A stretch of 46,143 nucleotides of DNA from an uncultured Verrucomicrobiae bacterium. Lineage in GTDB: Bacteria > Verrucomicrobiota > Verrucomicrobiia > Limisphaerales > J093. The notes beneath the pieces are model-generated. The model saw only the letters and a list, made by a program, of their open reading frames with translations, did not search any database and was not told the origin of the DNA. The stretch spans positions 1 to 46,143 of the forward strand of contig CALJWR010000240.1 in NCBI GenBank assembly GCA_937976685.1, given 5' to 3'. A program made the position numbers and the translations under genes. Below, piece after piece: positions 2,695 through 16,875 of this stretch (position 1 is the first letter of the stretch; each line of letters begins with the position of its first letter).

Positions 2695-2835
2695 CATTGC
2701 GGGGAACGGGGGCCCGCGCAAGCACGGCCATCTGGAAAGAATTCGTTGGCCAAACGGATCGGGTTCAAACGACTTAACGGTTGTGGTTGCATTTCCGGCG
2801 ATGATTGACAACCCTCAAGGAGTCGGTTGCGTTTA

Positions 2836-5800
2836 ATGGATTCATCCGCACAGGTTGAGTTGGTGAGACGTTGCCAGCGCGGTGACAGCGCGGCGTGGGA
2901 AGAATTGGTTTCCGCCTTCTACGCCGAAGTGGGTCGTTTCATCTTTCTTCTGAATCCGGCCTATGCCGAAACTGAAGTGGAAGAAGTGGCGGCCGGTGTG
3001 TTCTTGGATTCGGTCCGGGCGGTGGCTTTCTTCGGCGGCCGAAATCCCGCGCGCGTTGGCTTGTTCTATGCCGCCCTGCGGAAAGCAGCCACCCATCATC
3101 CGCGGCGGGAAAGCAGGGTTCAGAATCCTCCGCAGCCAGCCGGTGGCGGGAACCCGAACGGGCGGTCCGGCCCCCCAGCCCATCTCGCGCTGTTTCTCGC
3201 CTTGGACCATCTCGGCGGACCCTGCCGGGATTTGATCGTCCTCCGATACTTTGGAAATTTGGAGTTGGCCGACCTGGCTCCCGAGTTCGAGGTGAGCGAG
3301 GCGACGCTCGCCATCAGAATTGCCAAGTGTCTCGGAACCTTGGGCGGACTGATGGCGTTGGAGGCCCCGGGCGGCGACCGGCAGGCTGCGGAGGAGGCCG
3401 AGGATGGGGCCTCCGCAGAACTGATTACTGCGGCGCTTCTGAGTTACCGCGAGTGGCGCCTTGGGCAACTGCCGCCAAGTCTCCAGCCTCCGGATTCCCT
3501 GCTCCCCCAAATTCGCGCGGCGCTTACCCGCTCGCCCGAAGCGCGGTCGCGCGTCGAGCTGCGCCGGGCGGCCCGGTTCGTTAAACCCGACATCGTGGCC
3601 AAGGCCATCGGTGCTGCCGCCGGCGTTGTCACCGTCGCCACAGGTATCGCGTTGGTCGCCAGCAGGACTGGGCGGGATGCCGGCGCGGGCGGAGGCTCGG
3701 CCCACGACAACCGGATGACGGGACTTGGCCTCAGCACGATAACGCCTCCCGGTCAGGAAACGAGCTTGAACCGCGGGACCGAGCGCGAGTTCGAGGAGTT
3801 TGTCAGCCGGCTGCTGCCGGTGAATCCCCTCCCTAGTCCGGCGCCGATTGCGGCCGGGGCTTCGACGGTCAACACCAGCGCACCGGAGCCGACGGAACCT
3901 TCTAGCGCTGGTGCCAGCTTGACCAGCCCATCCCCCTCTGCACCGACGGACGCGAAGCTGCAAGTCGCCAAGGACCCGTCTCGCAGCGCGGAAGCACCGT
4001 TGTCCAACAGTTCAGCAGCTACCCCAACGCTGACGACGGGCCGGGTAACCTCGAACGGCGACCCGACGGCGCCATCCGGAAGCGAGGCTTCTGGATTGAC
4101 CGTGACGGCATCCGGAGGTGCCGGCTCCAGCCAGCCACCGTGGACCGCCGAACAGGCGGAGGGGATGGCGCCCGCGTGGATGTTACGGGGATCCGGACCA
4201 GTCGCGCGTGCAGCGATGGAACTGCGGACGTTTGCCCATTACGGTGCCACCCCGCTGCTGGAAAATGTGCCGGCGACTTTTGGACGGGCTCTGAATTCTC
4301 CAGCGTTTCCGTTCGGTCAATCCGACGCCCAAGTGGCAGGGGGGGCGACCAACGTCCCCGCCGTCCCGAGCGCTCCCCGGAAGCCGGAGCCAATGCCCCT
4401 TTCCGCGGGGGACCAGCTTGCTGCCACCAAGGCGGAACCGGCCACCGGACCGGTTGGCGACTCGCTGGCCGCCGCCGTGGACGGAGTGGTCTCAGCGGCT
4501 GGCAGGCAACCGGATTCCGGCGGTTCCCCGGCCGTGGGAACCGGGGTTGCGGAGTTCTCAAATCAGACGGACTGGACGGTAGAAGTCGTCGCTGCGAGGC
4601 CCAGCGCCGGGGCTGCGGAGGTAGCGCCTCCAGAATTGACTGCGGCCTCCTCGGCGGCCACCGCAGCGGCGGTCAGCTCGATTGGGGAAGCGGCCCAAAG
4701 TGGCGACTCGGGATTGGCGTCTTCGCAAGCGAGGACCGACGTGGAGATTGCCCGCCAGCCGCTTGCGCCGAAGACCGACCGGAACGTGGAGACCCCGGAG
4801 CAGCTCGCAGCGACCGCGGCAGCCGAGTCCAACCTGCCCCAGGAGAACTCGCTCGTGGACGACTCGGTTCCCAAGACAGCGCCTCCTGATTCGATTGCGA
4901 CTGCAGTGGAACCGGTCCGGCGGCAGGAAGCGTCATCGCAGGCCTTCCAAATGCAGCTAGTCGCGGTCCCGGGCTCGAACAACGGCGGAAAGCGGGAGCA
5001 GAGTACCGACTCAGACGCTTCGCCACTCGCTCGTGCCGACACCCGTTCAAAGGTGGATTCTGACTCTGAGGTGGCGTTTTCAACTTCGGCTCCAAGTGAG
5101 GCAGAGGCGAAGCCGGCAGGCGGTCTCGCGTCCCGTCCCCTCATCGGGCTGAACCTGAACTTTCGCGTTCACCTGGGCGGCAAGCCGGTGGGTACCGTGG
5201 GTATCAGCGGTTCGAGGCCCTTCGCCGAGCCATCGGTTGCCGATTCACGGAATCCGACTTCCGGCGAAACCGGGGTTTCGGAGGGCGTTACTCTCGCTCC
5301 CGCTTCAGCGCCGAAGCCGATGCCAATCGCAGGCCGGGCGGAGAATTGGAACCGCCGGGTGACCCCGCTGCATCCGTTGGCGGAGCGAACCCACGCGTCG
5401 CGTCCCGCCCCGATCGCCTCGGCCTACCGATCGTCCGATCGCCCTTACCAAGCCAATCAGCCTCCCGTTCTGAGGGTTGCGAGTGTGAGGCCGGCAGCGG
5501 GCACGGCAAACGATTTTCTCTCAACCGATCCCGACGAGAAGGCTTTGGCCGCTGTCAATTCAGGGATGCTGCCGGAAACCGGAAGCGCGTCGGCGAAGTT
5601 CGTGAGGGAGGAGATCACCCGCAGCCTCCGAAGAAATCTCAACTCCCCGCCGATGCCCCAAGTCTTGGAGGAATTCCGCTTTGCTGACCGGGCCGGCCGG
5701 TTGGTGCTTCTTGACAGCGATGGGTCGGAGTTCCCGGTGGTATCAGAGTCAGGAGAGGAAGCGTTTGCCTCCCTCGCGTCGTTGGCGCGCACGCTTCGGA

Positions 5801-6027
5801 CGTTTGGCCTGCCGCTGCGGTTCTCGGCATCCGGCCTCAGCCTTTCCACCGGTGAAATCGTGACTTTTGAGGGCTGGGTGGAGCCGGAGGACGATTCGGT
5901 CTCCGAAGTTCCGCGCACCGCCAGCGAAGGCGGCCCCGAGGTTCTGGCGGCGGCACAGGTTCGCGGCGAGGTCCAAGTCGGCGCCCGGCAGCGCTTTCCG
6001 ATTAGTGCCACGAGCGGCCGGGATTGA
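2836..6027 (+). CDS. ECF-sigma-like protein with membrane segment and long disordered tail
   Basis: This 1063-residue protein begins with a sigma-70 region 2-like segment (about residues 5-95: VRRCQRGDSAAWEELVSAFY), a Pro/Gly linker and a region 4-like helix-turn-helix (about 125-180: RDLIVLRYFGNLELADLA). After a helical stretch there is one hydrophobic segment around residues 260-280. Then follow more than 600 residues rich in Ala, Ser, Thr, Pro and Glu with no visible fold, and a C-terminal block of about 110 residues (from LEEFRFADRAGRLVLLDSDG) that looks globular. ATG 2836 follows an AAGGAG by 13 bases. TTG 2827 is the alternative start. No anti-sigma gene is adjacent. It may be a membrane-tethered sigma factor, or a signalling protein that has lost sigma activity. 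The C-terminal block is unrecognised. Confidence 0.8.
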   Translation: MDSSAQVELVRRCQRGDSAAWEELVSAFYAEVGRFIFLLNPAYAETEVEEVAAGVFLDSVRAVAFFGGRNPARVGLFYAALRKAATHHPRRESRVQNPPQPAGGGNPNGRSGPPAHLALFLALDHLGGPCRDLIVLRYFGNLELADLAPEFEVSEATLAIRIAKCLGTLGGLMALEAPGGDRQAAEEAEDGASAELITAALLSYREWRLGQLPPSLQPPDSLLPQIRAALTRSPEARSRVELRRAARFVKPDIVAKAIGAAAGVVTVATGIALVASRTGRDAGAGGGSAHDNRMTGLGLSTITPPGQETSLNRGTEREFEEFVSRLLPVNPLPSPAPIAAGASTVNTSAPEPTEPSSAGASLTSPSPSAPTDAKLQVAKDPSRSAEAPLSNSSAATPTLTTGRVTSNGDPTAPSGSEASGLTVTASGGAGSSQPPWTAEQAEGMAPAWMLRGSGPVARAAMELRTFAHYGATPLLENVPATFGRALNSPAFPFGQSDAQVAGGATNVPAVPSAPRKPEPMPLSAGDQLAATKAEPATGPVGDSLAAAVDGVVSAAGRQPDSGGSPAVGTGVAEFSNQTDWTVEVVAARPSAGAAEVAPPELTAASSAATAAAVSSIGEAAQSGDSGLASSQARTDVEIARQPLAPKTDRNVETPEQLAATAAAESNLPQENSLVDDSVPKTAPPDSIATAVEPVRRQEASSQAFQMQLVAVPGSNNGGKREQSTDSDASPLARADTRSKVDSDSEVAFSTSAPSEAEAKPAGGLASRPLIGLNLNFRVHLGGKPVGTVGISGSRPFAEPSVADSRNPTSGETGVSEGVTLAPASAPKPMPIAGRAENWNRRVTPLHPLAERTHASRPAPIASAYRSSDRPYQANQPPVLRVASVRPAAGTANDFLSTDPDEKALAAVNSGMLPETGSASAKFVREEITRSLRRNLNSPPMPQVLEEFRFADRAGRLVLLDSDGSEFPVVSESGEEAFASLASLARTLRTFGLPLRFSASGLSLSTGEIVTFEGWVEPEDDSVSEVPRTASEGGPEVLAAAQVRGEVQVGARQRFPISATSGRD

Positions 6028-6029
6028 GG

Positions 6030-6043
6030 CCCCGTTAACGGGG
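6030..6043. terminator. Palindrome between convergent genes
   Basis: A perfect 14-base palindrome (CCCCGTTAACGGGG) starts two bases after the stop of the sigma-like gene and covers the stop codon of the deoR gene read from the other strand. It can fold as a 5-bp stem with a TTAA loop in either transcript, but neither side has a U-tract. Confidence 0.4.
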
Positions 6044-6808
6044 AGGCGCGGCGCTGGCAACAATCACTTCGACCCGGCGGCTGCGGAGTTGCTCCACTAA
6101 CTCACCGGGCGCTCCCGCGTCGGTGACCACGGCGTGGACTTGCTGGAGGTCGCACACGAAGCCCATCGAGCGGCGCCCGAACTTGGTGTGATCCAGGCAG
6201 TAAATTACCCGCTGGGCAGCCCGCATCATCGCCACTTGAATCTCGATCAGCAAGGCGTGCGAGTTGGTAATTCCGTCCGTGGTGATGCCGCCAGCCCCCA
6301 TCACGGCCACGTCCGCGTGCATCTTCGAGAATGATTCCACGGCCAGCGGCCCCACCAAGACACCCAGCCGCGGATAGAGCACGCCCCCGGACAGCACCAC
6401 CTCGACCTGGCTGGAAGCCGCGTAGAGGTTCGCCACTGGCAGGGAATTGGTGATGATCTGCGGCTTCCGTGACTCCAAGTAACGGGCCGCGTGGTACGGC
6501 GTGGTGCCAGCGTCAATGATCACACTTTGCCCCGCACCAATCAGGTCCGCGCACGCGCGTCCAATCGCCTCCTTTTCGTCGAGCTGATGCGTGTCCCGGG
6601 CGTTAAACACAAACTCGTCCGAACGCGGATTCACCAAACGGGCCCCTCCGTGGGTCCGCCGTACGGACCCACCGCCTTCCAGCGCGGTGAGATCGCGGCG
6701 GACGGTGGACTGAGAAACTCCCAACTGGTTGGCCAGCTCCTCCAAGGAGGCGAATTCCACCTTTTGAAGGTATTCCTCGATTCGAGCTTGGCGTTCTTCG
6801 GCCTGCAC
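6035..6808 (-). CDS. DeoR-family transcriptional regulator of the BMC operon
   Basis: DeoR-family proteins repress sugar catabolic genes and release DNA on binding a phosphorylated sugar. The 257-residue product has an N-terminal winged helix-turn-helix (about residues 8-60, ELANQLGVSQSTVRRDLTAL) with the family hallmark THGGA. The C-terminal sensor domain shows DAGTTPYHAARYL, TNSLPVANLY, LSGGVLYP and the GAGGI element. The start is a GTG at 6808. It is transcribed away from the BMC genes, with 86 bases between the two starts, so local control of the operon is the natural reading. A deoxy-sugar phosphate such as fuculose- or rhamnulose-1-phosphate is the likely effector by context, and this is inference. 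Confidence 0.92.
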   Translation of the reverse strand: MQAEERQARIEEYLQKVEFASLEELANQLGVSQSTVRRDLTALEGGGSVRRTHGGARLVNPRSDEFVFNARDTHQLDEKEAIGRACADLIGAGQSVIIDAGTTPYHAARYLESRKPQIITNSLPVANLYAASSQVEVVLSGGVLYPRLGVLVGPLAVESFSKMHADVAVMGAGGITTDGITNSHALLIEIQVAMMRAAQRVIYCLDHTKFGRRSMGFVCDLQQVHAVVTDAGAPGELVEQLRSRRVEVIVASAAPPR

Positions 6809-6860: not shown

Positions 6861-6894
6861 CAGCCAGCGGCCTATGGTCATTTGTCATCCAGAA

Positions 6895-7572
6895 ATGACT
6901 CCTCCCGGATCATCTCTGCCCCGTGCCGTGGTCGAACATCTGGTTCGGCAACTCGTGTACGAGCGTTTGGGAAAGCCGCTGCCCCGCGTGGCTTCGGCAC
7001 CGAACCCTCTGGTTGTCAACGTCAGCGCGCGCCATTGCCACCTCACCCAGGCGGCGGTGGAGGCGTTGTTTGGAAAGGGGCATCAATTAGGCGTCCACAA
7101 ATGGCTCTACCAGGACGGCCAGTTCGCCGCCAAGGAGACCGTGACGTTGATTGGTCCCCGGAGCCGCGTGATTTCGAATCTGCGAATTCTGGGTCCCTGC
7201 CGCAGCTTAAACCAGGTGGAACTCGCCTACACCGATTCCATTGCTCTGGGGTTCGAGATTCCGCTGAGGATTTCGGGTGACATCAAGGGCACGCCCGGCT
7301 GCATGTTGATGGGGCCGGCCGGTTTTTTTGAGATGAAGGAAGGCGTGATCCGGGCCTTGCGGCATGTTCACATGCATCCGGAGGACGCCGCCTTTTACGG
7401 AGTGAAAGCCGGTGACGCGATGAAACTGCGCATTGGCGGTCCCTGCGCCCTCACGCTGGAGCGCATGCTCTGCCGGGTGGACCCGAGCTTCAAACTGGAA
7501 GTCCACGTTGACACCGACGAGGGCAACGCCTGCAACTTGCAGCCGAACACCCCTTGCGAACTGATCAAATGA
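6895..7572 (+). CDS. pduL: PduL-type phosphotransacylase of the BMC
   Basis: PduL (PTAC) converts acyl-CoA plus phosphate to acyl phosphate and CoA inside catabolic microcompartments, regenerating the CoA used by the aldehyde dehydrogenase. The 225-residue protein shows both metal-binding clusters of the family: ARHCHLT (His47, His49) and RHVHMHPEDA (His157, His159, His161). Residues 7-26 form an amphipathic helix (LPRAVVEHLVRQLVYERLG) followed by a Pro-containing linker, which is the expected encapsulation peptide. ATG 6895 was chosen because it places this helix at the N-terminus. ATG 6874 would add seven residues. No SD precedes it, and with the -35 at 6855 the transcript would have a very short leader. 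It is the first gene of the operon. Confidence 0.93.
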   Translation: MTPPGSSLPRAVVEHLVRQLVYERLGKPLPRVASAPNPLVVNVSARHCHLTQAAVEALFGKGHQLGVHKWLYQDGQFAAKETVTLIGPRSRVISNLRILGPCRSLNQVELAYTDSIALGFEIPLRISGDIKGTPGCMLMGPAGFFEMKEGVIRALRHVHMHPEDAAFYGVKAGDAMKLRIGGPCALTLERMLCRVDPSFKLEVHVDTDEGNACNLQPNTPCELIK

Positions 7573-7627
7573 GAAACTGATTTCTCCTCCGTAGCGACTG
7601 ACTCCAAACTCCCAACTCCTGACACTT

Positions 7628-7918
7628 ATGAGCGAAGCACTCGGCATGATCGAAACCAAAGGCTACGTCGGCGCTGTTGAAGCCAGCGACGCGATGGTCA
7701 AGGCGGCCAACGTAACCCTCGTCAAAACCATCCCCATCGGCGGCGGTCTGATCACCGTCCTCGCCAAAGGGGACGTCGGCAGCGTCAAGGCGGCCGTAGA
7801 TGCCGGCTCGAAAGCGGCCGCGAAGGTGGGCGAACTCATCAGTTCGCACATTATCGCGCGCCCGCATGAGGACCTGCTCAAGTCGTTCCTGGGCGAATCC
7901 GCGCCAGCGAAGAAGTAG
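7628..7918 (+). CDS. BMC-H shell protein 1
   Basis: This 96-residue single-domain BMC protein (pfam00936 fold) would form the flat hexamers that tile the facets of the shell. It opens with the diagnostic ALGMIETKGYVGAVEASDAMVKAANV and has the conserved RPHEDL end. The pore loop reads PIGGGL, so three glycines line the hexamer pore instead of the common GSG. A short Lys/Ala tail follows. It has no SD. The leader before the ATG is C/T-rich, as for the other shell genes. It lies 55 bases after pduL. Confidence 0.95.
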   Translation: MSEALGMIETKGYVGAVEASDAMVKAANVTLVKTIPIGGGLITVLAKGDVGSVKAAVDAGSKAAAKVGELISSHIIARPHEDLLKSFLGESAPAKK

Positions 7919-7957
7919 CGGCGACCGCAACCTCGACTCTCATCCCTCTCAAACTCT

Positions 7958-8236
7958 ATGGCACAACAAGCGATTGGCATGATCGAATGCAAGGGTCTGT
8001 GCGCGCTGCTCGAAGCCAGCGATGCCGCCCTCAAAGCCGCGAACGTCACCCTCGTCGGCTGGGAAAAGATTGGCAGCGGTTACGTGACGTCCTTCTTCCG
8101 CGGCGATGTGGCTGCGGTCAAGGCGGCCACCGACGCCGGCGCGGCGGCGGCGGCCCAAGTGGGGCAGGTCATCAGCGTACAAGTCATTCCCCGGCCACAC
8201 GAAGGTCTGAGCGCCCTCGGGAAGTGGCTGCAATAA
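7958..8236 (+). CDS. BMC-H shell protein 2
   Basis: This is a 92-residue BMC-H hexamer-forming shell protein. It starts [20 protein letters not shown] and has the canonical pore loop KIGSG seen in PduA-like hexamers that pass small polar metabolites. A single Cys in the first strand (MIECKG) and a bulky Trp/Glu just before the pore loop distinguish it from its two paralogues here. It follows BMC-H 1 after 39 bases and most likely arose by tandem duplication. Confidence 0.95.
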
Positions 8237-8330
8237 CCGAGCGTGCCAGCCGGCAGCGGGAGTTCAACGGATTTCGACCGCACGGTCCCCGCCGACTTCG
8301 AATGCTGGCGCCAGACATTGACTCAGCCCC

Positions 8331-9515
8331 TTGAAGATCCTCGTCGCCAACATCGGCTCCACTTCGCTGAAGTGGCGGCTGTTTGACTTCGCCAACGGCG
8401 GCGAAGCGATGCTGCACAAAGGCGGTTTCGAGCGGGTCAGCGACTATGCGGCTGCCATCGAGGATTGTCTGTCAGAGCTCAAACAAGCCGGAGTTCTGTC
8501 AAACGAGGCCGAGTTGGCCGGGGTTGGTTTCAAGACCGTCATTGCCAGGGACGTGACCGGTTGCGTCCGGTTGACGGAGGGCGTCCTGCGCGCGATGGAG
8601 GCCTACAACGGTCTCGCCCCGGCGCACAATCCACCGTACATCGCGGGCATTCGGCAATTCGCCCGGCGGATGCCGGCGACGCCGTTGGTGGGCCTCTTTG
8701 AGACCGCATTCTATCAGTGGGCGCCCGAGCCGGCGAAACGGTACGCGGTGCCCGTCTCGTGGCACGACCTCGGTGTGCGCCGCTGGGGTTTCCACGGTGC
8801 CAGCCACAAATTCATCGCCGAGCGCAGCGCCGAATTGCTCGGCCGGCCCGACGTGGCGCAGCGGGTGCAGAATCTTTATCGGGACGGGGGTGCCTCGCCG
8901 GTCAACTCTCCTGCGCTTCGCGTGATTTCGTGCCACCTGGGAGGCAGTTCCTCGGTGACGGGGATCCTGAACGGCGTGGCCCTCGGCAACAGCCTTGGCA
9001 TGAGCCCGCAATCGGGATTGCCGCACAACAATCGCGTCGGCGATCTGGACGCCTTTGCCCTCGGCTACGTGATGCGTTCGACCGGCCTGTCCCTCGATGA
9101 GGCGGAGCGCCTTCTCAGCAAAGAGGCGGGCCTGAAGGGATTGAGCGGTGGTTACGCCGACCTGCGCGATCTTCAGGCGCAGATCGCCGCGGGCAACCAC
9201 CGCGCCCGGCTTGCGGTGGACTTTCTCGCGCATGAGGCGCGGCGCTGGATCGGATCGTATTACCTCCAACTGAACGGACTGGACGCGCTCGTGTTCACGG
9301 CGGGCATGGGGGAAAACGAACCGGAGATCCGGTCGCTCATCACCGCCAACCTGGATCAACTGGGCATCCTGCTCGATCCCGCCAAGAACGCGACGGCCCG
9401 GGCCCGGGAGGCCGACATCAGCGCACCGGATTCCCGGGTCAAGGTGTGGGTCATTCCCACCAACGAAGAACTGGTCGTGGCGCGCGAAGTGCGACGCCTC
9501 CTGGAGGCGCAGTAA
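8331..9515 (+). CDS. Acetate kinase-family acyl kinase of the BMC
   Basis: Acetokinases transfer phosphate from an acyl phosphate to ADP, giving ATP and the free acid. By context this one would act on the product of PduL, for example lactyl phosphate. The 394-residue product keeps the ASKHA fold marks: N-terminal NIGSTSLKWRLFDF, the GFHGASHKFIAERSAELL segment with its catalytic His region, and FTAGMGENEPEIR near the end. Other usually fixed motifs differ: HLGGSSSV replaces HLGNGAS, and the MGTRSGD loop reads HNNRVGDLD, keeping the Arg. The start is a TTG at 8331. The carbonic anhydrase gene follows after four bases, so the two are almost certainly co-transcribed. A role in housekeeping acetate metabolism is less likely. 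Confidence 0.9.
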   Translation: MKILVANIGSTSLKWRLFDFANGGEAMLHKGGFERVSDYAAAIEDCLSELKQAGVLSNEAELAGVGFKTVIARDVTGCVRLTEGVLRAMEAYNGLAPAHNPPYIAGIRQFARRMPATPLVGLFETAFYQWAPEPAKRYAVPVSWHDLGVRRWGFHGASHKFIAERSAELLGRPDVAQRVQNLYRDGGASPVNSPALRVISCHLGGSSSVTGILNGVALGNSLGMSPQSGLPHNNRVGDLDAFALGYVMRSTGLSLDEAERLLSKEAGLKGLSGGYADLRDLQAQIAAGNHRARLAVDFLAHEARRWIGSYYLQLNGLDALVFTAGMGENEPEIRSLITANLDQLGILLDPAKNATARAREADISAPDSRVKVWVIPTNEELVVAREVRRLLEAQ

Positions 9516-9519
9516 TCCC

Positions 9520-10236
9520 ATGCGATCGCTCCGTCATCTCTTTGAGAACAACCGGGCCTGGTCGGAGGACCTCCGGCGGCGCGATCCCCAATTCTTCGCG
9601 CGGCTGACGCGGCAGCAAAAACCGCAATACCTCTGGATCGGTTGCTCGGACAGCCGCGTGCCGGCCAACGAGATTGTCGGGCTGCTTCCCGGGGAGATCT
9701 TTGTACACCGGAATGTCGCCAACGTCGTGGTGCATACCGACCTCAACTGTCTGTCCGTGTTGCAGTACGCGGTGGACGTTCTGGGCGTGCGCGACGTGAT
9801 CGTCTGCGGACACTACGGTTGTGGCGGCGTGCTCTCGGCCTTGCGGGGAGACCGTTTGGGCCTGGCGAGCAACTGGCTGCGCCACGTCCAGGACGTCTAT
9901 CGGAAGCACCAAGCTCGCATTGACGGACTGGGCGGCGAGTCAGCGCGCTGCAACCGGCTCTGCGAGCTCAACGTGGTCGAGCAGGTCATGAACGTGTGCC
10001 AAACCACGGTGGTGGCGGAAGCGTGGGGCCGCGGTCAGCGCCTCGCGGTGCATGGCTGGATTTACGGCCTGCATGATGGCCTGCTGCGCGATCTCGGACT
10101 CTGTGTCACCGGCCCGGAGCAAATGGCTGCGGCCCTCGCGGCCGCACTGGCTCTCATCGGTGATTCCCCCGAAAAGATCTCACCCCGAGCCGGCCCCCCG
10201 GGCCACCCATTCTTGTCAACGACCTTAGCCCGTTAA
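9520..10236 (+). CDS. Beta-class carbonic anhydrase inside the BMC operon
   Basis: Beta carbonic anhydrases interconvert CO2 and bicarbonate with a zinc ion. The 238-residue product has the full metal and catalytic set: Cys42-Ser-Asp44-Ser-Arg46 (CSDSR) and His98-Tyr-Gly-Cys101 (HYGCGG), with HRNVANVV and VHGWIYGLHDG further along. This is the layout of bacterial Can-type enzymes. After the domain there is an Ala-rich helix (EQMAAALAAALALIG, about residues 203-217) and a loose Pro/Gly tail, which could be a C-terminal targeting peptide. It sits four bases after the kinase and 19 before a BMC-H gene, so it is part of the operon. Its role is unclear, since the known pathway neither makes nor uses CO2. 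Confidence 0.93.
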   Translation: MRSLRHLFENNRAWSEDLRRRDPQFFARLTRQQKPQYLWIGCSDSRVPANEIVGLLPGEIFVHRNVANVVVHTDLNCLSVLQYAVDVLGVRDVIVCGHYGCGGVLSALRGDRLGLASNWLRHVQDVYRKHQARIDGLGGESARCNRLCELNVVEQVMNVCQTTVVAEAWGRGQRLAVHGWIYGLHDGLLRDLGLCVTGPEQMAAALAAALALIGDSPEKISPRAGPPGHPFLSTTLAR

Positions 10237-10255
10237 CCTCATCCCAAAAAACATT

Positions 10256-10537
10256 ATGCCTCAAGCCATTGGAATGCTCGAAACCCGCGGCCTCGTCGCC
10301 CTGGTGGAAGGAACCGACGCCATGCTGAAAGCCGCGAACGTGGAACTCGCCGGCCCGATGACCCAGGTCGGCAACGCACTGGTCACCGCGGTCGTGGTGG
10401 GCGATGTCGCCGCCGTGAAAGCCGCCGTGGACGCCGGCGCCCAAGCCGTAAAGTCCATCAGCGGTGAGGTGGTCAGCGTTCACGTCATCGCCCGACCGCA
10501 CGCTGATGTTGAAGCGGTGCTGCCGAAGAAAAAGTAG
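10256..10537 (+). CDS. BMC-H shell protein 3
   Basis: This 93-residue BMC-H protein begins PQAIGMLETRGLVALVEGTDA and ends with the usual VHVIARPHADV followed by a Lys-rich tail. Its pore loop departs from both paralogues: where they have IGGG or IGSG it has QVGNAL, putting Asn/Ala at the constriction. The substituted loop suggests a different selectivity. It may be the hexamer that handles the substrate of the adjacent carbonic anhydrase, but that is only a positional guess. Confidence 0.94.
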   Translation: MPQAIGMLETRGLVALVEGTDAMLKAANVELAGPMTQVGNALVTAVVVGDVAAVKAAVDAGAQAVKSISGEVVSVHVIARPHADVEAVLPKKK

Positions 10538-10621
10538 GCGGACGGCGGAAGCCAGACGCCTGACCGTGGCCGCTGGGGCACCGTTCCAGACCTTGGCTTC
10601 TGAACCCTGACTTCTCCCGCC

Positions 10622-10939
10622 ATGTTCCTCGCCAAAGTCGAAGGTTCGGTCGTCGCGACAAAGAAGGACCCGGGCATGACCGGCCGCAAGCTGCTTCTGC
10701 TCCGCCCCATGCTCGTGGACGAGAAGGATCCGGCCAGGTTCCGCCCGGGGGCGAACACGATCGTCGCCGTGGACAGCGTGGGCGCCGGCGAAGGCGAACT
10801 GGTCCTGTTCTGCCAGGGGAGCTCGGCACGACTCGCGCCGGGACTCAAGGACTGCCCCGTGGACGCCGTGGTGATCGGCATTGTGGACACCGTGGATGTC
10901 CTCGGTCGGCAGGTTTTCAACGCCCGGACCCAAGCCTGA
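10622..10939 (+). CDS. BMC-P shell protein 1 (EutN/CcmL family)
   Basis: BMC-P proteins form the pentamers that cap the vertices of the icosahedral shell. The 105-residue product has the family start MFLAKVEGSVVATKKD, the central GRKLLLLRP strand, a TIVAVDSVGAGEGELV segment and the closing DAVVIGIVDTVDV. The C-terminal extension is short. It follows BMC-H 3 after 84 bases and precedes the aldehyde dehydrogenase gene. Confidence 0.94.
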   Translation: MFLAKVEGSVVATKKDPGMTGRKLLLLRPMLVDEKDPARFRPGANTIVAVDSVGAGEGELVLFCQGSSARLAPGLKDCPVDAVVIGIVDTVDVLGRQVFNARTQA

Positions 10940-11010
10940 TGGCACGCTGACTCCTGGCCACTCGTCGAACCGCTACGCCGCATCTGGAACCCCCAACTCC
11001 CCCTCCCCGC

Positions 11011-12504
11011 ATGAGCACATCTCTCCCGGTCAACGAAGCCCTCATCCGTGACGTCGTCAGCGAAGTTCTCAGCCGCCTGGGCAAGGGCGCTCCCCCAGCC
11101 GCGTCGCCCGCGGTCAACCCCGCCTGCGGTTGTCCGACTGGCGCGAAGCCAGCCGCAGCACCGCCCCGCGGCACTTTTGGGGTTTTTCAGAACGCCGATG
11201 AGGCGTGCGCCGCGGCGCATGCGGCCTATCTGCAGCTTTCCGAAAAGGGGGTCGCCGGGCGGGTCAAGGTGGTGCAGATCGTCAAGGATCTCTGCTTCGC
11301 CCACGCCAAGGAGTGGGGTCGGATCGAACTGGAGGAAACGAAGATCGGCCGGCTGGACCACAAGATTGAGAAGCTCCTCGGGCAGCGAGGCATTCCGGGC
11401 GTGGAGTTCCTGAATCCCTACGGTCTCAGTGGCGACCACGGCATCACGCTCGAGGAGTACGCCCCGTTCGGTGTGATCGGCGCGGTGACGCCGAGCACGC
11501 ATTCAATTCCGACGATGGCCTGCAACATCATCAGCATGGTCGCCGCAGGCAATGCGATTGTCTTCAACGCGCATCCCGGAGCCTACAAGTGCGCGGTCAT
11601 GGCGGCGCGCGTCTTCAATGAGGCCATCCATCGCGAGCTGGGCATCGAGAACCTCGCCTGCATTGTGGATCCGCCAACCCTCGACTCCTTCAACGCCATC
11701 GCGAAAAACGAGCACGTCCGGCTCCTCTGCGTGACGGGCGGGCCGGGCGTCGTGAAGGCTGCCATGGCCAGTGGCAAGCGCGCCATCTGCGCGGGGCCGG
11801 GCAACCCTCCCGTGCTGGTGGACGGAACCAGTTGCCTTGCTAACGCGGCGCGCTGCGTCGTCCTAGGCGCCGCCTACGACAACAATCTGCTTTGCATCGG
11901 CGAGAAGCAGGTCTTCGTGTTGGAACCGTACTTCGACAAGTTCACGGCGGAGCTTGAGAAGGCAGGTGGCTATCGCCTCACGGACGCCCAGGTCGAACGG
12001 CTGACCAAGGCGGCGTTCGTGATTCCGCCGGGCACCGGCGCGGGCTGCGGTCATCCGGTGGTGAATCGCGATCTCGTGGGACGCGACCCCGAGGTGCTCG
12101 CCCGGGCGGCGGGGGCGAGCATCCCCGCCGGCACGCAACTGCTCTTCGCCGAAACACCCCCCGATCACCTGTTCGTGGACGAGGAGCAGATGATGCCGTT
12201 TCTGCCCATCGTGCGTGTCAAGACGGTCGAGGAGGGAATTGCGCACGCCAAACGGTCAGAGCGGGGCTACAAACACTCGGCCATGATTCACTCGCACGAC
12301 GTGGCGAACATGACGGCGATGGCCAGGGCCCTTGAGACCACGCTCTTCGTGAAGAACGGCGCCTGCGTGGCAGGCCTTGGCCATGGCGGCGAGGGCTATG
12401 CCAACTTCAGCATCGCCACGACCACCGGCGAGGGCATCTGCAACCCGCGCACCTTCACGCGCGTTCGCCGCTGCGTGATGGTGGACAAGCTGAGGATCTT
12501 CTGA
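11011..12504 (+). CDS. CoA-acylating aldehyde dehydrogenase of the BMC (PduP/EutE-like)
   Basis: This enzyme oxidises an aldehyde with NAD and CoA to the acyl-CoA; here the substrate is probably L-lactaldehyde. The 497-residue protein has an N-terminal amphipathic helix (NEALIRDVVSEVLSRLG, about residues 8-24), then an Ala/Pro linker, which is a clear encapsulation peptide. The dehydrogenase domain follows with VTPSTHSIPTMACNIISM, CVTGGPGVVKAAMASGKR and the catalytic cysteine Cys295 in NNLLCIGEKQ. CAGPGNPPVLVDG and the C-terminal TGEGICNPRTFTR are typical of the PduP/EutE branch. No SD is present; the upstream 25 bases are mostly C. A GC hairpin follows the gene at 12542. Confidence 0.94.
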   Translation: MSTSLPVNEALIRDVVSEVLSRLGKGAPPAASPAVNPACGCPTGAKPAAAPPRGTFGVFQNADEACAAAHAAYLQLSEKGVAGRVKVVQIVKDLCFAHAKEWGRIELEETKIGRLDHKIEKLLGQRGIPGVEFLNPYGLSGDHGITLEEYAPFGVIGAVTPSTHSIPTMACNIISMVAAGNAIVFNAHPGAYKCAVMAARVFNEAIHRELGIENLACIVDPPTLDSFNAIAKNEHVRLLCVTGGPGVVKAAMASGKRAICAGPGNPPVLVDGTSCLANAARCVVLGAAYDNNLLCIGEKQVFVLEPYFDKFTAELEKAGGYRLTDAQVERLTKAAFVIPPGTGAGCGHPVVNRDLVGRDPEVLARAAGASIPAGTQLLFAETPPDHLFVDEEQMMPFLPIVRVKTVEEGIAHAKRSERGYKHSAMIHSHDVANMTAMARALETTLFVKNGACVAGLGHGGEGYANFSIATTTGEGICNPRTFTRVRRCVMVDKLRIF

Positions 12505-12541
12505 TGCGCGCACACGGTCCTTGGTTGGCGGTCCCCCGTCG

Positions 12542-12563
12542 GCCGCGGAAGACAACCCGCGGC
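12542..12563 (+). promoter_or_regulatory. Intra-operon GC hairpin after the aldehyde dehydrogenase gene
   Basis: A perfect 7-bp stem (GCCGCGG/CCGCGGC) with an 8-base A-rich loop lies 38 bases past the stop codon, in the longest gap of the operon (150 bases). No U-run follows. It may protect the upstream mRNA 3' end or lower expression of the downstream BMC-P genes, since pentamers are needed in far smaller numbers. Confidence 0.4.
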
Positions 12564-12654
12564 GGCCTCGCCGGAGCTCCAGCCGGGAAGCTCCCGCGAC
12601 TGGCTGACGAAACCACCCGCCAGGAACGCGGACCCCAGAGCAACCTGTCAACCC

Positions 12655-12963
12655 ATGCTCCTCGCCCGTGTTGAAGGTTCGGTGATCGCCACCCGGAAGC
12701 ATCCCAGCTACGAGGGCTGGCGGCTGTTGATCTGTCAGCCGATCGCTGCTTCTGGTGAGCCCGAAGGAACGCCCCAGATCGCGATTGATCCCCACGGCGC
12801 CGGCCTGCACGAACGCGTCATCATCTCGTCCGACGGCATGGCCGCGCGTCTGGCGGTGGGCGATCCGAAAAGCCCGGCCCGCTGGATGATCATCGGGTTA
12901 GTGGATGAGCCCGAGTCGCTCGCCGCCGCTGTCCCGCAGACGTCAAGGAGTCCTGCAGCATGA
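12655..12963 (+). CDS. BMC-P shell protein 2
   Basis: This 102-residue vertex protein of the EutN/CcmL family begins MLLARVEGSVIATRKHPSYE and has the WRLLICQP strand and IAIDPHGAGLHERVIISSDG core. The end is a loose Pro/Ser/Ala tail. Its stop codon overlaps the start of the next BMC-P gene (ATGA), so the two are translationally coupled and probably made in fixed proportion. Confidence 0.94.
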   Translation: MLLARVEGSVIATRKHPSYEGWRLLICQPIAASGEPEGTPQIAIDPHGAGLHERVIISSDGMAARLAVGDPKSPARWMIIGLVDEPESLAAAVPQTSRSPAA

Positions 12964-13262
12964 GACTTGGCACCGTCATCGGGCGGGTGACGCTCAGCAA
13001 GACGATCCCTCCCTTCAAGGGGGGGCGCTGGCTGGTGATCAGTCCCTTCACGCGACAACATTTTCAGCATCGGCGCGAACCGCCCGTGGGCTTGAGTCGC
13101 GATCCTTCCTTGGTGGCTTACGACAGTCTCGGTGGCGGCGTGGGCGATACCGTCGGCTTCAGCGAGGGACGCGAGGCGGCCATGCCCTTTGACCAGCCGA
13201 CGCCCGTGGACGCGATCACGGTGGCGATCATTGACGACGTGTTCTATTCACCCCAGACCTGA
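12960..13262 (+). CDS. BMC-P shell protein 3
   Basis: This 100-residue BMC-P protein is the most divergent of the three. It begins MRLGTVIGRVTLSKTIPPFK with GGRWLVISPF next, and ends with the family's closing strand DAITVAIIDDVFY. An insertion rich in Arg and Pro around residues 36-50 replaces the short loop of its paralogues. Three different pentamer proteins in one locus is a known feature of PVM-type loci. It overlaps the preceding gene by four bases. Confidence 0.93.
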   Translation: MRLGTVIGRVTLSKTIPPFKGGRWLVISPFTRQHFQHRREPPVGLSRDPSLVAYDSLGGGVGDTVGFSEGREAAMPFDQPTPVDAITVAIIDDVFYSPQT

Positions 13263-13293
13263 AGGCCGTGGCTCACGGCTCCATGCCTGACCT

Positions 13294-14361
13294 ATGAAGA
13301 AAGTCCTCAGTCAACGTGACGTGGAAGAGATGCTCCGTCAGGGAGCGGATCTCACCGCCATCCCAGCGGACACCATTCTCACACCGTCCGCCCGCGACCT
13401 GCTCCGCGACGTGCTGGAAAACGTCCGCACTCCGTCCAGCCTTACGACTCCGACCAGGGTCGCCGTCGCGGCCGCCAGTTCGACGCAGCCGCCGGCGAAG
13501 CCTCTGAACTCAAAGTCGCCCAAGGCCGAACTGGAGGCCTTCTTCCACTCGGCTCACGCCCTCGATCTCAAGCAGCAAATCTGCGAGATGGGCCGCCGTC
13601 TGTGGCAGCGTGCGTATGTGGATGGCAACGGCGGCAACATGGCCATCCGCGTTGGCGAAGACATCGCCCTTTGTACCCCGACGCTGGTCAGCAAAGGCTC
13701 GCTCAAGCTCGAAGACATGTGCCTCGTGGACTTCGAGGGGAATCAGTTGCTCGGCATCAAGAAGCGCACCAGCGAGATCCTGATGCACCTGCAAATCATG
13801 AAGCGGCAGCCCAAAGCCATCGCCACGTGCCACTGCCATCCGCCCTACGCCACGGGCTTCGCGGTGGCCGGCATCGTGCCCCCGACGTGCATGCTGCCGG
13901 AGTACGAGGTCTTTTGCGCGGTGGCCGTCGCACCGTACCGGACGCCCGGCACGCCGGAGATGGGCAAACTCGTGGCCGACCTCGTGGACCAGCACAACAC
14001 CATCCTCATGGCCAACCACGGTGTCGTCACGTGGAGCCACAACAACATCGAGGAGGCCTACTGGCGGATGGAAATCATCGAGGCGTACTGCCGCACCTTG
14101 ATGGTCGCGGCCCAGCTCGGCGTGAAGCCCAACACATTCTCGCCCCAGCAGCTTCAGGATCTGCTCAAGATCAAGCAGAGCCTCGGCTACGTGGACCCGC
14201 GTTACGGGCTGAAGGAATGCGAACTTTGCGACAATGACGAGTGGCGCCCGGGGGTCACCTGCCAGGTCCCGGCCCAATCCGAGACCACGACCGGCTACGA
14301 CGCCGAGGCGGAAGCGGTTGTCCAGGCCGTGACCGATCAGATCATGGCGCAGCTCAAGTGA
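13294..14361 (+). CDS. Class II aldolase (fuculose/rhamnulose-1-phosphate type) with targeting helices
   Basis: This enzyme cleaves L-fuculose-1-phosphate or L-rhamnulose-1-phosphate to DHAP and L-lactaldehyde, the signature step of the PVM microcompartment. The 355-residue protein has a zinc site in HCHPPYATG (His180, His182) and NHGVV (His242) and a catalytic Glu at 161 (TSEILMH). The aldolase domain spans about 85-275. Before it come two predicted helices (residues 5-17 and SARDLLRDVLENVR near 35-48) and a Thr/Pro/Ala linker. After it is a Cys-containing segment (KECELCDND) and a terminal helix, EAVVQAVTDQIMAQLK. Both ends therefore resemble encapsulation peptides. No sugar kinase or isomerase gene accompanies it, so the exact sugar cannot be fixed. 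Confidence 0.9.
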   Translation: MKKVLSQRDVEEMLRQGADLTAIPADTILTPSARDLLRDVLENVRTPSSLTTPTRVAVAAASSTQPPAKPLNSKSPKAELEAFFHSAHALDLKQQICEMGRRLWQRAYVDGNGGNMAIRVGEDIALCTPTLVSKGSLKLEDMCLVDFEGNQLLGIKKRTSEILMHLQIMKRQPKAIATCHCHPPYATGFAVAGIVPPTCMLPEYEVFCAVAVAPYRTPGTPEMGKLVADLVDQHNTILMANHGVVTWSHNNIEEAYWRMEIIEAYCRTLMVAAQLGVKPNTFSPQQLQDLLKIKQSLGYVDPRYGLKECELCDNDEWRPGVTCQVPAQSETTTGYDAEAEAVVQAVTDQIMAQLK

Positions 14362-14413
14362 GCCTCGCGTCGCTCCAGTTCCGTCCCTGTTGCTGCTTGA
14401 TCCCTCCTTGCCC

Positions 14414-15340
14414 ATGAAAGTCACAATCATCGGTGGCGGCGGCCGCGTCGGCTCCTGCGCCGCCTTCGCCCTTCAGTGCGGCGGCGTGGTCGCCGAAATC
14501 CAGTTGATGGACGCCAACCAGGCGGCCGCCGAAGGCGAGGCGCTCGATCTGCTGCACGGCGCGGCATTCACGGCCGATCAACGCCTGTACGCGGGCGACT
14601 ACGCGCGGGCGGCCGACAGCGACCTGTTCCTCATCACGGCCGGCCTGCGGCGCAAACCCGACGAGTCCAGGCTCGACCTCATCAACCGTAACGTCGCGCT
14701 CTTCACCCAGATCCTCGACGCGATCAAGGCGGCCGGTTTTCGCAGGGACGCTCACGTGTTCGTCGTGTCAAACCCGGTGGACATTCTCACCCAGCTCGCC
14801 GTGGGGCGACTGGGTCTGCCTTGGTCGCAGGTCTATGGCTTGGGCACCATGCTGGACAGCGCCCGGTTCAGCTCCCTGATCGCGGACGAATTCAAGCTGG
14901 CCCCCACCCAGGTCAAAGCCCTCATCCTGGGCGAACACGGCGATTCGATGGTGCCCATCTGGTCCAGCGCCACGGTCAATGGCCTGCCGCTGGCGGGCCT
15001 GCCGCAGTTCACGCCGGGTTTTCAGAACGCGGTCTTCGAACGGACCAAGGGCAGCGGCGCCGAGGTGATCAAGCGCAAGGGCGGTGCGGGCTGGGCGGTG
15101 GCCGTCGCCATCCGGGACGTGATCCACGCCGTGGCGTTGAACCAGCGGCGGTTGCTGCCCGTGTCCTCCCTGGTGCAGGGCGCGTACGGCATTCGCAACG
15201 TTTGTCTCAGTGTGCCGTCGGTCGTGGGACGCGCCGGCGTCGAGAAGCACGTCGAGATCAAACTCTGGCCGAAGGAGATTACCGGCCTGCAGAACTCGGC
15301 GCGGGCCCTGGAGGACACCCTGGCCAAGGTCAGGGCGTAA
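14414..15340 (+). CDS. Lactate/malate-type dehydrogenase of the BMC operon
   Basis: This is a 308-residue NAD-dependent 2-hydroxyacid dehydrogenase of the LDH/MDH superfamily. It shows the nucleotide fold (IIGGGGRVGS, acidic Asp in LMDANQ favouring NAD), SNPVDILTQLA, GTMLDSARF with the catalytic Asp and substrate Arg, and GEHGDSMVPIWS with the catalytic His. The specificity loop reads AGLRRKPDESRLDL. An Arg stands where lactate enzymes have Gln102, as in malate enzymes, while the rest of the loop looks lactate-like. ATG 14414 (MKVTIIGG) was preferred over TTG 14390. It probably recycles NADH or processes the lactate made by the compartment; which of the two is not shown by the sequence. Confidence 0.88.
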   Translation: MKVTIIGGGGRVGSCAAFALQCGGVVAEIQLMDANQAAAEGEALDLLHGAAFTADQRLYAGDYARAADSDLFLITAGLRRKPDESRLDLINRNVALFTQILDAIKAAGFRRDAHVFVVSNPVDILTQLAVGRLGLPWSQVYGLGTMLDSARFSSLIADEFKLAPTQVKALILGEHGDSMVPIWSSATVNGLPLAGLPQFTPGFQNAVFERTKGSGAEVIKRKGGAGWAVAVAIRDVIHAVALNQRRLLPVSSLVQGAYGIRNVCLSVPSVVGRAGVEKHVEIKLWPKEITGLQNSARALEDTLAKVRA

Positions 15341-15343
15341 CCC

Positions 15344-16627
15344 GTGAAATCGCTCGACGCCAAGCTGGCTGAGATCAGGGCCAACCCCCGCTCGCGCGCC
15401 TTCATCATCGCGGACGCCAAAGACGCAGACATGGCCTTCGGCGTGAAGGCCCCCGGGCCCCGGTCCTATTTATCAGCGCAGGGCGCGCGGCCGGCGCAGT
15501 TTTCGCCCGAGGTGTGGACGCGCGAGGAGTTCGGCTACCGCAACCTGCCCGAGTTCCTCGACATCATCCGCGAAGTGACCCGCCAGGGCTTGGTGGACAT
15601 CATGCTCATGTCCGCCTACGTCAACGACCTCCTCACGATCAAGGAGGGCCTCTTCAAGGACTCTCACGTCACGCCTGCGGCCCGCGCCAACGACACCACG
15701 GACGTGTGGGCCGCCCGCCACGGGAGCTACACCAAGGAACCGGCGCAGCCTTTCCGGAGCGCGAGCATTGACCAGATCCAATGCGGGCGCGTGGAGTGCG
15801 ACCGGACGACCGAGGAGTTTCCCGGGGCCAACCTCGGCCTGTACAGCGTGACCTGGGTCAACGATCTCGAACAGGACCGCCGCACGCTGCTCGAGTACAA
15901 AGCCTTCCGCGATGAGGCCGAGCGAAAACGGTTCCGCCATTTCCTCGAAGTCTTCGATCCGAACGTGGACAGCGGCATTCCGCCGGAAAAACTCGGCGAG
16001 TTCATCAACGACCAGATCCTCCGCACGCTCGCCGGTGTGCCCGAGACCGGACGGCCGCTCTTTCTCAAGATCGTCTATCACGGTCCGCGCGCGATGGAGG
16101 AGCTCTGCCAGTACGACCCAAACATGGTCGTCGGCATTCTGGGCGGCGGGGCGGGCACCACGTACGATGCCTTCAAGCTCATCCACGAGGCGCAAAAGTA
16201 CGGCGCGCGGGTGGCGTTGTTCGGGCGCAAGATCAACCACGCCGAGCACCAGCTTGCGTTCATCGAGATGCTGCGGCTGATCACGGATGGCCACGTCACG
16301 CCGGAAGAGGCCGTACGTGCCTACCACGGTGTGCTTCAAGCCAAGGGCATCCAGCCGCATCGCCCGCTCGACGAGGACTTGGAACTCACCGACCAAGCCA
16401 TGAGCTACGGCGGTGGAGGGACGCGGACCACGGTGCAAATCCGGGCCAATCCCCTCGTCGGGCCGGCGCGACCGACGGTACCCAAAAGCGCAAGTGCGTC
16501 CGCGAAGGCGGAATTGACCGCACCCGTCTGGCCCACCCGGCCCGACGGCTCGCCTGACTTCGCCGCGATGAATTCCGCCCAGCGTGCGGCGTTCGATGCC
16601 TGGCGCCTCAAGCGGCGGTTCGGTTGA
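15344..16627 (+). CDS. Putative class I aldolase-like TIM-barrel protein, last gene of BMC operon
   Basis: This 427-residue protein is not recognised as a named family. It starts from GTG 15344, three bases after the dehydrogenase stop. The first strand reads SRAFIIADAKDADMAFGVKAPG. The segment PLFLKIVYHGPRAMEEL followed by VVGILGGGAGTTYDAF and ARVALFGRKIN resembles strands 6-8 of class I aldolases of the DhnA/LacD/DeoC group, with the Lys of FLKIVYHG where those enzymes form a Schiff base and the GG and GR turns at the phosphate site. After the barrel a Pro/Ala/Ser linker leads to a terminal helix (SAQRAAFDAWRLKRRFG) that could be an encapsulation peptide. It may be a second aldolase for another sugar phosphate, or a regulatory or inactive relative. 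Confidence 0.6.
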   Translation: MKSLDAKLAEIRANPRSRAFIIADAKDADMAFGVKAPGPRSYLSAQGARPAQFSPEVWTREEFGYRNLPEFLDIIREVTRQGLVDIMLMSAYVNDLLTIKEGLFKDSHVTPAARANDTTDVWAARHGSYTKEPAQPFRSASIDQIQCGRVECDRTTEEFPGANLGLYSVTWVNDLEQDRRTLLEYKAFRDEAERKRFRHFLEVFDPNVDSGIPPEKLGEFINDQILRTLAGVPETGRPLFLKIVYHGPRAMEELCQYDPNMVVGILGGGAGTTYDAFKLIHEAQKYGARVALFGRKINHAEHQLAFIEMLRLITDGHVTPEEAVRAYHGVLQAKGIQPHRPLDEDLELTDQAMSYGGGGTRTTVQIRANPLVGPARPTVPKSASASAKAELTAPVWPTRPDGSPDFAAMNSAQRAAFDAWRLKRRFG

Positions 16628-16640
16628 ATCCCGGAAGTCA

Positions 16641-16678
16641 ATCGGGCCAGCCCGCGGCCGGGGCAATCGCTGCCCGAT
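16641..16678. terminator. Inverted repeat at the end of the BMC operon
   Basis: ATCGGGC (16641-16647) pairs with GCCCGAT (16672-16678). A smaller nested stem, GGGCA/TGCCC (16661-16675), is an alternative. It lies between the last BMC gene and a convergent small gene and could stop transcription from both sides. No U-tract is present. Confidence 0.4.
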
Positions 16679-16875
16679 CAACCCAGTGAGCGGCCTTGAG
16701 CCGCCCACCCTCGGCGCATCAAGCCCAGCAAGTGCGCCAAGGCATCCTCATAGGCCCGTCCTTTGGCGGCAGCGAGCTGCCGGGCGCGTTTGTCGAGTTG
16801 GGCCGCCATCCCGGCGCATTTCGCCGCCGGACAGCCCATCACCGCGAGCAGTTGCGCGAGTTCGGCAAGGTCCAT
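16678..16875 (-). CDS. Small hypothetical protein (65 residues)
   Basis: This is a helical 65-residue product beginning MDLAELAQLLAVMGCPAAK, with two Cys five residues apart (CPAAKC), a basic middle (LDKRARQLAAAKG) and a C-terminal LAHLLGLMRRGWAAQ. No family is recognised. It is kept as a real gene because it is 50 bases downstream of a cyclophilin gene on the same strand and has a sensible amphipathic pattern. The short length leaves some doubt. Confidence 0.5.
   Translation of the reverse strand: MDLAELAQLLAVMGCPAAKCAGMAAQLDKRARQLAAAKGRAYEDALAHLLGLMRRGWAAQGRSLG

Follow-up and report, generated by a model that had tools for sequence, protein, structure and literature searches.

A candidate second aldolase with a C-terminal tail closes a PVM-type microcompartment operon of Verrucomicrobiota

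Microcompartments of the PVM (Planctomycetes-Verrucomicrobia) type are regarded as organelles for fucose and rhamnose with a single aldolase at their entry step. The PVM locus as described (PMC4207490, PMC8217296, PMC8857213) comprises three BMC-H and three BMC-P genes together with genes for PduL, an AckA-type kinase, a CoA-acylating aldehyde dehydrogenase (AldDH), a class II aldolase, a lactate/malate dehydrogenase (LDH/MDH)-type dehydrogenase, and a DeoR regulator. The same core is present in the window analyzed here, a contig of 46,143 nucleotides (C240) from a Verrucomicrobiota genome (G000). In contrast to the published loci, the window locus carries an extra gene at its 3' end, which encodes a class I aldolase-like protein with a C-terminal tail and is referred to as gene X. 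A tailed aldolase-like gene is not mentioned in the main text of the three reports. The literature was also searched for gene X and for fructose-1-phosphate microcompartments, and nothing was found.

The operon is compact (positions 6874 to 16627) and, with its class II aldolase, AldDH, PduL, AckA, three BMC-P, and BMC-H genes and its DeoR-type regulator, belongs to the PVM (fucose/rhamnose) type. The regulator gene is positioned upstream in the divergent orientation (6035 to 6808, reverse strand). Its helix-turn-helix was read directly in the sequence, and its homologues occupy the equivalent position in most PVM loci. All genes of the operon lie on the forward strand. The first encodes the phosphotransacylase PduL (6874 to 7572; PF06130, 6e-70), followed by two BMC-H shell protein genes (7628 to 7918 and 7958 to 8236; PF00936), genes for an acetate/propionate-type kinase (8331 to 9515; PF00871) and a beta-carbonic anhydrase (9520 to 10236), a third BMC-H gene (10256 to 10537; PF00936), and a first BMC-P vertex protein gene (10622 to 10939; PF03319). 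These are followed by the gene for the CoA-acylating AldDH (11011 to 12504; NF011927, 4e-167), two further BMC-P genes (12655 to 12963 and 12960 to 13262; PF03319), the gene for the class II aldolase, the signature enzyme of PVM microcompartments (13294 to 14361; PF00596, 3.7e-41), an LDH/MDH family gene (14390 to 15340; PF00056/PF02866), and gene X (15344 to 16627). The class II aldolase had already been recognized in a preliminary description of this DNA. Neither a sugar kinase nor an isomerase is encoded in the operon.

Among the 80 related loci described below, the beta-carbonic anhydrase gene was otherwise found only in L014, at the same place, and in L015, between the class II aldolase gene and gene X; a bicarbonate/CO2 role in the compartment would be hypothetical. 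The PduL of the window carries Gln at the position equivalent to Gln77 of rPduL. Most PVM PduLs were reported to have Tyr or Phe at this position, and these residues were proposed as a lactyl-CoA marker (PMC4784909). In all readable PVM loci of the order the residue is Gln, His, or Ser; Tyr was seen only in some Opitutales-like loci. The position did not help to tell whether another acyl group is used, because Gln occurs in loci with and without gene X alike. Away from the operon, a 351-amino-acid frame with two BMC domains (G000:C174:5117-5626) represents a satellite BMC-T shell gene; such two-domain frames are divergent from the PVM locus in other genomes. The window also contains an open reading frame of 1,066 amino acids (2827 to 6027, forward strand), the first approximately 150 residues of which resemble an ECF sigma factor and precede a long low-complexity region; this frame has no Pfam match.

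Gene X is an open frame with a GTG start located 3 bp past the stop of the LDH/MDH family gene, and it encodes a protein of 427 amino acids, which bears out the earlier placement of a 427-residue protein at the end of the operon. A genome scan revealed at least 576 relatives, and the best 80 were fetched, all of which are labelled as or evidently belong to Verrucomicrobiota. Records L024, L029, L032, L034, L036, L040, and L069, which are titled Klebsiella pneumoniae, Akkermansia muciniphila, or Proteobacteria, are misnamed metagenome bins with Verrucomicrobiota PVM loci. On nearly all long-enough contigs among the fetched loci, gene X lies directly 3' of the class II aldolase gene or after the LDH gene. 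The junction between the class II aldolase gene and gene X or the LDH gene looks like an insertion hotspot, with an inserted DUF3368 family upstream of gene X in L002, L004, L020, and L077 and a PD-(D/E)XK_3 family protein in L001, L013, and L038.

Two further homologue groups lack the tail. One occurs in Verrucomicrobiota (50 to 58% identity, approximately 345 amino acids), and the other is encoded on rhizobial, agrobacterial, and Vibrio plasmids (41 to 49% identity, 330 to 343 amino acids) and annotated as "hypothetical protein," the label that public homologues of gene X carry in general. Since homologues with 41 to 82% identity are found in more than 570 genome contigs as well as on plasmids and 50 positions are invariant in 104 sequences, gene X is, judging from its conservation, a real coding sequence and no chance open reading frame. 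The antisense frame of 411 amino acids (15473 to 16708, reverse strand) results from the GC richness of the gene X coding sequence.

The structure of the gene X protein was modeled by AlphaFold using 45 sequences, with plasmid-derived rows left out. The model revealed a TIM barrel (mean pLDDT of 80.9). A Foldseek comparison with the PDB gave 133 matches at an E value of 0.001 or below, and the top 50 were exclusively LsrF, the archaeal (Thermoproteus) fructose-1,6-bisphosphate (FBP) aldolase, LacD, and ADH synthase. The target-normalized TM score for the Thermoproteus FBP aldolase was 0.76. The preliminary description had expected an (alpha/beta)8 barrel with a conserved active-site lysine, and the predicted fold and its best matches, which are aldolases of the DhnA/LacD type, agree with this expectation. 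The sequence landmarks that it had listed, FLKIVYHG with its lysine and the GGG and GR turns, were all found, at residues 240 to 247, 267 to 269, and 294 to 295, respectively.

Lys242 (codon at 16067 to 16069), the candidate Schiff-base lysine, is located on predicted strand 6 (residues 241 to 243) in a K-[IT]-x-Y-x-G motif and is invariant in all 104 homologues from Verrucomicrobiota and Proteobacteria. Equally invariant are D24, D27, D29, R114, N116, E202, N207, G267, G268, G294, and R295. The three aspartates belong to the strand 1 motif DAKDAD (residues 24 to 29, positions 15413 to 15430; strand at residues 21 to 26 in the model). The GGG turn after strand 7 (16142 to 16150) and the GR turn after strand 8 (16223 to 16228) align with the GG and GR of LsrF and are candidate phosphate-binding loops. 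The motif K-I-V-Y-H-G of gene X matches K-T-Y-Y of LsrF. Automatic alignment placed Lys203 of LsrF one residue off Lys242, and the K-x-x-Y motif restores the register at the sequence level. The motifs around the lysine in the FBP aldolase of archaea (K-I-K-Y-T-G) and in ADH synthase (K-T-N-Y-T-G) agree with that of gene X as well.

Analysis of gene X with Pfam gave no family match, and across 44 homologues it gave scattered noise alone, with no match naming an aldolase. In NCBIfam, gene X by itself matched weakly (0.006 to 0.19), in the C-terminal half of the barrel, and all matches were models for DhnA-type aldolases or for LsrF, a related thiolase; 44 of 44 homologues matched DhnA-type models (best value, 3.6e-6). 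The scores of the family were below every NCBIfam cut-off, and PF01791 was not matched. Since no curated model scored above its cut-off, gene X was assigned to a new family of the superfamily and not to a named one. A phmmer search of the PDB with the single gene X sequence revealed nothing relevant, and a search with the family profile revealed LsrF (0.016) and ADH synthase. Alignment by hhalign with FbaB and YihT was not usable. A DeoC-type aldolase and an SPU-type microcompartment were rejected for lack of a Pfam DeoC/LacD match.

By every test run, on predicted fold and on conservation, the gene X protein is a class I (Schiff-base) aldolase, and it very probably acts as an aldolase of the DhnA/LacD superfamily on a ketose phosphate. 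It represents a new, unnamed family within a known enzyme superfamily, probably serving a known type of organelle as an accessory module. The preliminary description had offered a second cargo aldolase or a new enzyme family as alternatives. Both apply, the former probably and the latter in the sense that the family lies outside Pfam, and the earlier interpretation is thus largely supported. It had named no substrate, for which the neighboring genes suggest a ketose-1-phosphate.

The distribution of gene X was compared with that of shell genes in 245 sampled genomes of the order. Gene X was found in 137 genomes, 131 of which encode BMC-P vertex proteins, whereas 27 genomes have BMC-P without gene X and 81 have neither (Fisher, 2e-33, a value inflated by kinship among the genomes). 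Two of the six genomes with gene X alone have BMC-H genes, and the six are for the most part incomplete or contaminated bins. Shell genes were present in all 18 checked genomes with a tailed gene X; in 17 of these, the contig that carries gene X lacks the PVM locus. PVM loci were detected in 11 of 15 genomes with a tail-less copy, and the association with gene X is therefore not universal. PVM loci without gene X are otherwise gene-for-gene identical to those with it, which characterizes gene X as an accessory module added to a core that stays constant. Since gene X is part of a shell operon and is inherited together with shell genes, as expected of microcompartment cargo, it probably encodes a cargo protein.

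A C-terminal linker followed by an amphipathic helix had been described for this protein, and both were recovered in the model. Residues 352 to 391 (16397 to 16516) are predicted to be disordered (pLDDT below 50), and a helix is predicted at residues 411 to 426 (block means of approximately 88). The tail (16523 to 16624) has the consensus WPxxxxGxPDFxxMTSxQRxAYDxxRLxRxFG, which includes the conserved helix PDFxxM...RxAY..RL. Majority-residue conservation in 104 sequences was 0.87 for the barrel, 0.63 for the tail, and 0.38 for the linker (residues 362 to 392). The barrel sequences were used for a maximum-likelihood tree, in which the tailed proteins form one clade (SH-aLRT of 99) with a single change of the tail state; the tail arose once. 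Its motif was confined to gene X in the seven genomes searched. Nine genomes with a relocated tailed gene X have a complete PVM locus without gene X, and copies outside the microcompartment locus keep the tail. The helix of the tail, MNSAQRAAFDAWRLKRRF, is amphipathic (moment of 0.59). It is basic, and its hydrophobicity is lower than that of the presumed encapsulation peptides in PduL and AldDH from the same operon. Because of this basic character and dissimilarity, the tail is considered a candidate encapsulation peptide, and it could be a docking or oligomerization element instead.

The neighbors of gene X homologues were inspected for indications of a substrate. A gene for a D-lyxose/D-mannose isomerase (PF07385) and/or a PfkB/ketohexokinase lies within approximately 2 kb on the same strand in 13 of 14 loci with tail-less Verrucomicrobiota copies, and in 6 of the 14 the isomerase gene is within 20 bp of the homologue. 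One of these operons has the order DeoR, gene X homologue, isomerase, PfkB, and a GH2 beta-mannosidase-like gene. The proteobacterial copies of rhizobia and Vibrio are accompanied by an FGGY kinase together with PfkB, with an ADP-dependent PFK and an SDR, or with a GlpD-like dehydrogenase, and sugar ABC importers adjoin them. Tailed copies away from the microcompartment locus follow a ketohexokinase gene in L033, L037, and L042 and lie between PfkB and mannose/lyxose isomerase genes, with a spacing of 3 to 17 bp, in L044 and L046. These isomerase and kinase neighbors in three separate settings argue for a ketose phosphate as the substrate. The ketohexokinase evidence is limited to such direct adjacency with gene X. 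As a specific partner of gene X across the order, ketohexokinase was rejected, since the PF25270 family occurs in 159 of 245 genomes irrespective of gene X and the copy of G000 is located elsewhere, beside ParB-like and peptide-deformylase-like frames read from their translations.

The layout of an isomerase, one kinase, and an aldolase is that of the Escherichia coli sulfoquinovose operon, and its simplest reading is therefore a conversion of mannose via fructose and fructose-1-phosphate to dihydroxyacetone phosphate (DHAP) and D-glyceraldehyde. From this gene context, a substrate like fructose-1-phosphate is tentatively proposed; xylulose-1-phosphate derived from lyxose is possible, as is rhamnulose- or fuculose-1-phosphate in genomes with those pathways. 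On balance, we favor a role for gene X as a second, accessory cargo aldolase of the PVM-type microcompartment that splits a ketose-1-phosphate, with fructose-1-phosphate as the likeliest one. Lys242 would form an imine with the C2 carbonyl of the ketose-1-phosphate, the GG and GR loops would hold its phosphate, and cleavage would yield DHAP and a short aldehyde, which would be D-glyceraldehyde in the case of fructose-1-phosphate. If the tail docks the enzyme to the shell or core, the aldehyde would be released beside the encapsulated AldDH, PduL, and kinase. Substrates would then enter the compartment by two reactions, one catalyzed by the class II aldolase on deoxy-ketose-1-phosphates, yielding lactaldehyde, and one catalyzed by the gene X enzyme on another ketose-1-phosphate.

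The sugar isomerases of the host genomes bear on an alternative in which gene X encodes a cargo aldolase of the deoxy-sugar route itself, cleaving L-rhamnulose-1-phosphate and/or L-fuculose-1-phosphate, so that two aldolases would share lactaldehyde as one product. L-Rhamnose isomerase (RhaA) or L-fucose isomerase (FucI) is encoded in 20 of 20 PVM genomes without gene X, whereas neither is encoded in 50 of 126 PVM genomes with it (P = 1.8e-4, uncorrected for species relatedness). For FucI the counts are 16 of 20 and 16 of 126, respectively (P = 2e-9). L-Rhamnose isomerase is nevertheless present in 74 of the 126, the AldDH-PduL-kinase core is gene-for-gene equal with and without gene X, and LacD-type enzymes might be promiscuous and handle both phosphates. 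A TIGR02632 bifunctional rhamnulose-1-phosphate aldolase/dehydrogenase gene, representing a non-compartment rhamnose route that adjoins the compartment locus, lies directly 3' of gene X on the opposite strand in three loci (L025, 11348 to 13561; L026; L030). A RhaI-type isomerase is encoded in 6 of the 20 genomes without RhaA and FucI that are at least 90% complete, which weakens the absence of RhaA alone as proof that rhamnose is not used; the other 14, among them the single-contig genome G284, have no recognized isomerase. The relatives of gene X adjoin mannose/lyxose isomerase and ketohexokinase genes and not rhamnose or fucose genes, and we consider cleavage of the deoxy-sugar phosphates by the gene X enzyme unlikely.

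In G000 (approximately 80% complete), RhaA and full-length FucI were not found, and RhaI models matched weakly, so that genes for fucose or rhamnose supply were not found in this genome. A Pedosphaeraceae symbiont was reported to carry PV microcompartment genes and, apart from a rhamnulokinase, to lack a fucose/rhamnose pathway (PMC9600693). This symbiont and the genomes with gene X and no recognized isomerase are consistent with an additional entry reaction for a different sugar. An extended version of this proposal is a widespread PVM subtype fed mainly or only by the gene X enzyme, in which glyceraldehyde from fructose-1-phosphate (from fructose or mannose) would be oxidized by way of glyceryl-CoA, yielding glycerate and ATP; such organelles would be ketohexose and not fucose/rhamnose metabolosomes. 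We regard this extension as doubtful.

A cytosolic class I FBP aldolase of glycolysis or gluconeogenesis, which would recycle DHAP from the compartment and use its tail as an oligomer or partner-docking element, would account for the archaeal FBP aldolase among the best fold matches, for a glpX-type FBPase gene near gene X in L033 and L042, and for a tail unlike a classical encapsulation peptide. This function is improbable, however: a free-sugar isomerase with a single ketose kinase delivers a monophosphate and not FBP, the tail has a single origin and tracks microcompartment genomes, and gene X is located in the PVM operon and not in glycolytic clusters. A non-catabolic Schiff-base enzyme of the superfamily, such as an LsrF-like thiolase or a synthase/transaldolase acting on compartment products, is highly improbable even though LsrF (a thiolase) and ADH synthase are among the top fold and profile matches, since ketose phosphate cleavage is the simplest role for a gene found with an isomerase and a kinase and in polyol/ketose operons of distant phyla, a layout shared by yihS (isomerase), yihV (kinase), and yihT (aldolase) of E. 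coli.

If a second cargo aldolase unrelated to the first operates in these organelles, which would concern 137 of 245 genomes of the order, the entry step of PVM microcompartments would be modular and other sugars would be taken in. The relatives in fructose/mannose operons suggest that the organelle may also accept products of such sugars. A second entry aldolase would help to explain the Pedosphaeraceae with a PV microcompartment and no fucose/rhamnose pathway (PMC9600693). It would also provide a candidate function for a family of "hypothetical proteins" that occurs in Verrucomicrobiota, rhizobia, agrobacteria, and Vibrio.

Compared with the fucose/rhamnose type of PVM microcompartment, some genomes with gene X differ in having no recognized rhamnose or fucose isomerase. 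The gene X protein shares with DhnA-type aldolases (LsrF, archaeal FBP aldolase, and ADH synthase) the predicted TIM barrel, the strand 6 lysine in K-[IT]-x-Y, and the GG (strand 7) and GR (strand 8) loops. It differs from them in its low identity (11 to 17% in fold alignments), long inserts, its own set of invariant residues, and, in the microcompartment clade, the C-terminal tail. The context of gene X resembles that of LacD/YihT in the sulfoquinovose operon yihS-yihV-yihT, where an isomerase, a sugar kinase, and a class I aldolase lead to DHAP and a C3 aldehyde, and the fold matches include LacD structures; YihT has no sequence-level match to gene X, and the sugar genes beside gene X are different. 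SPU microcompartments employ a DeoC-type aldolase (pfam01791), whereas gene X has no Pfam DeoC/LacD match, its operon includes a class II aldolase, and no RpiB isomerase was recognized in the operon. The proposal made here for gene X and the SPU systems have in common a class I aldolase as the aldehyde-generating cargo.
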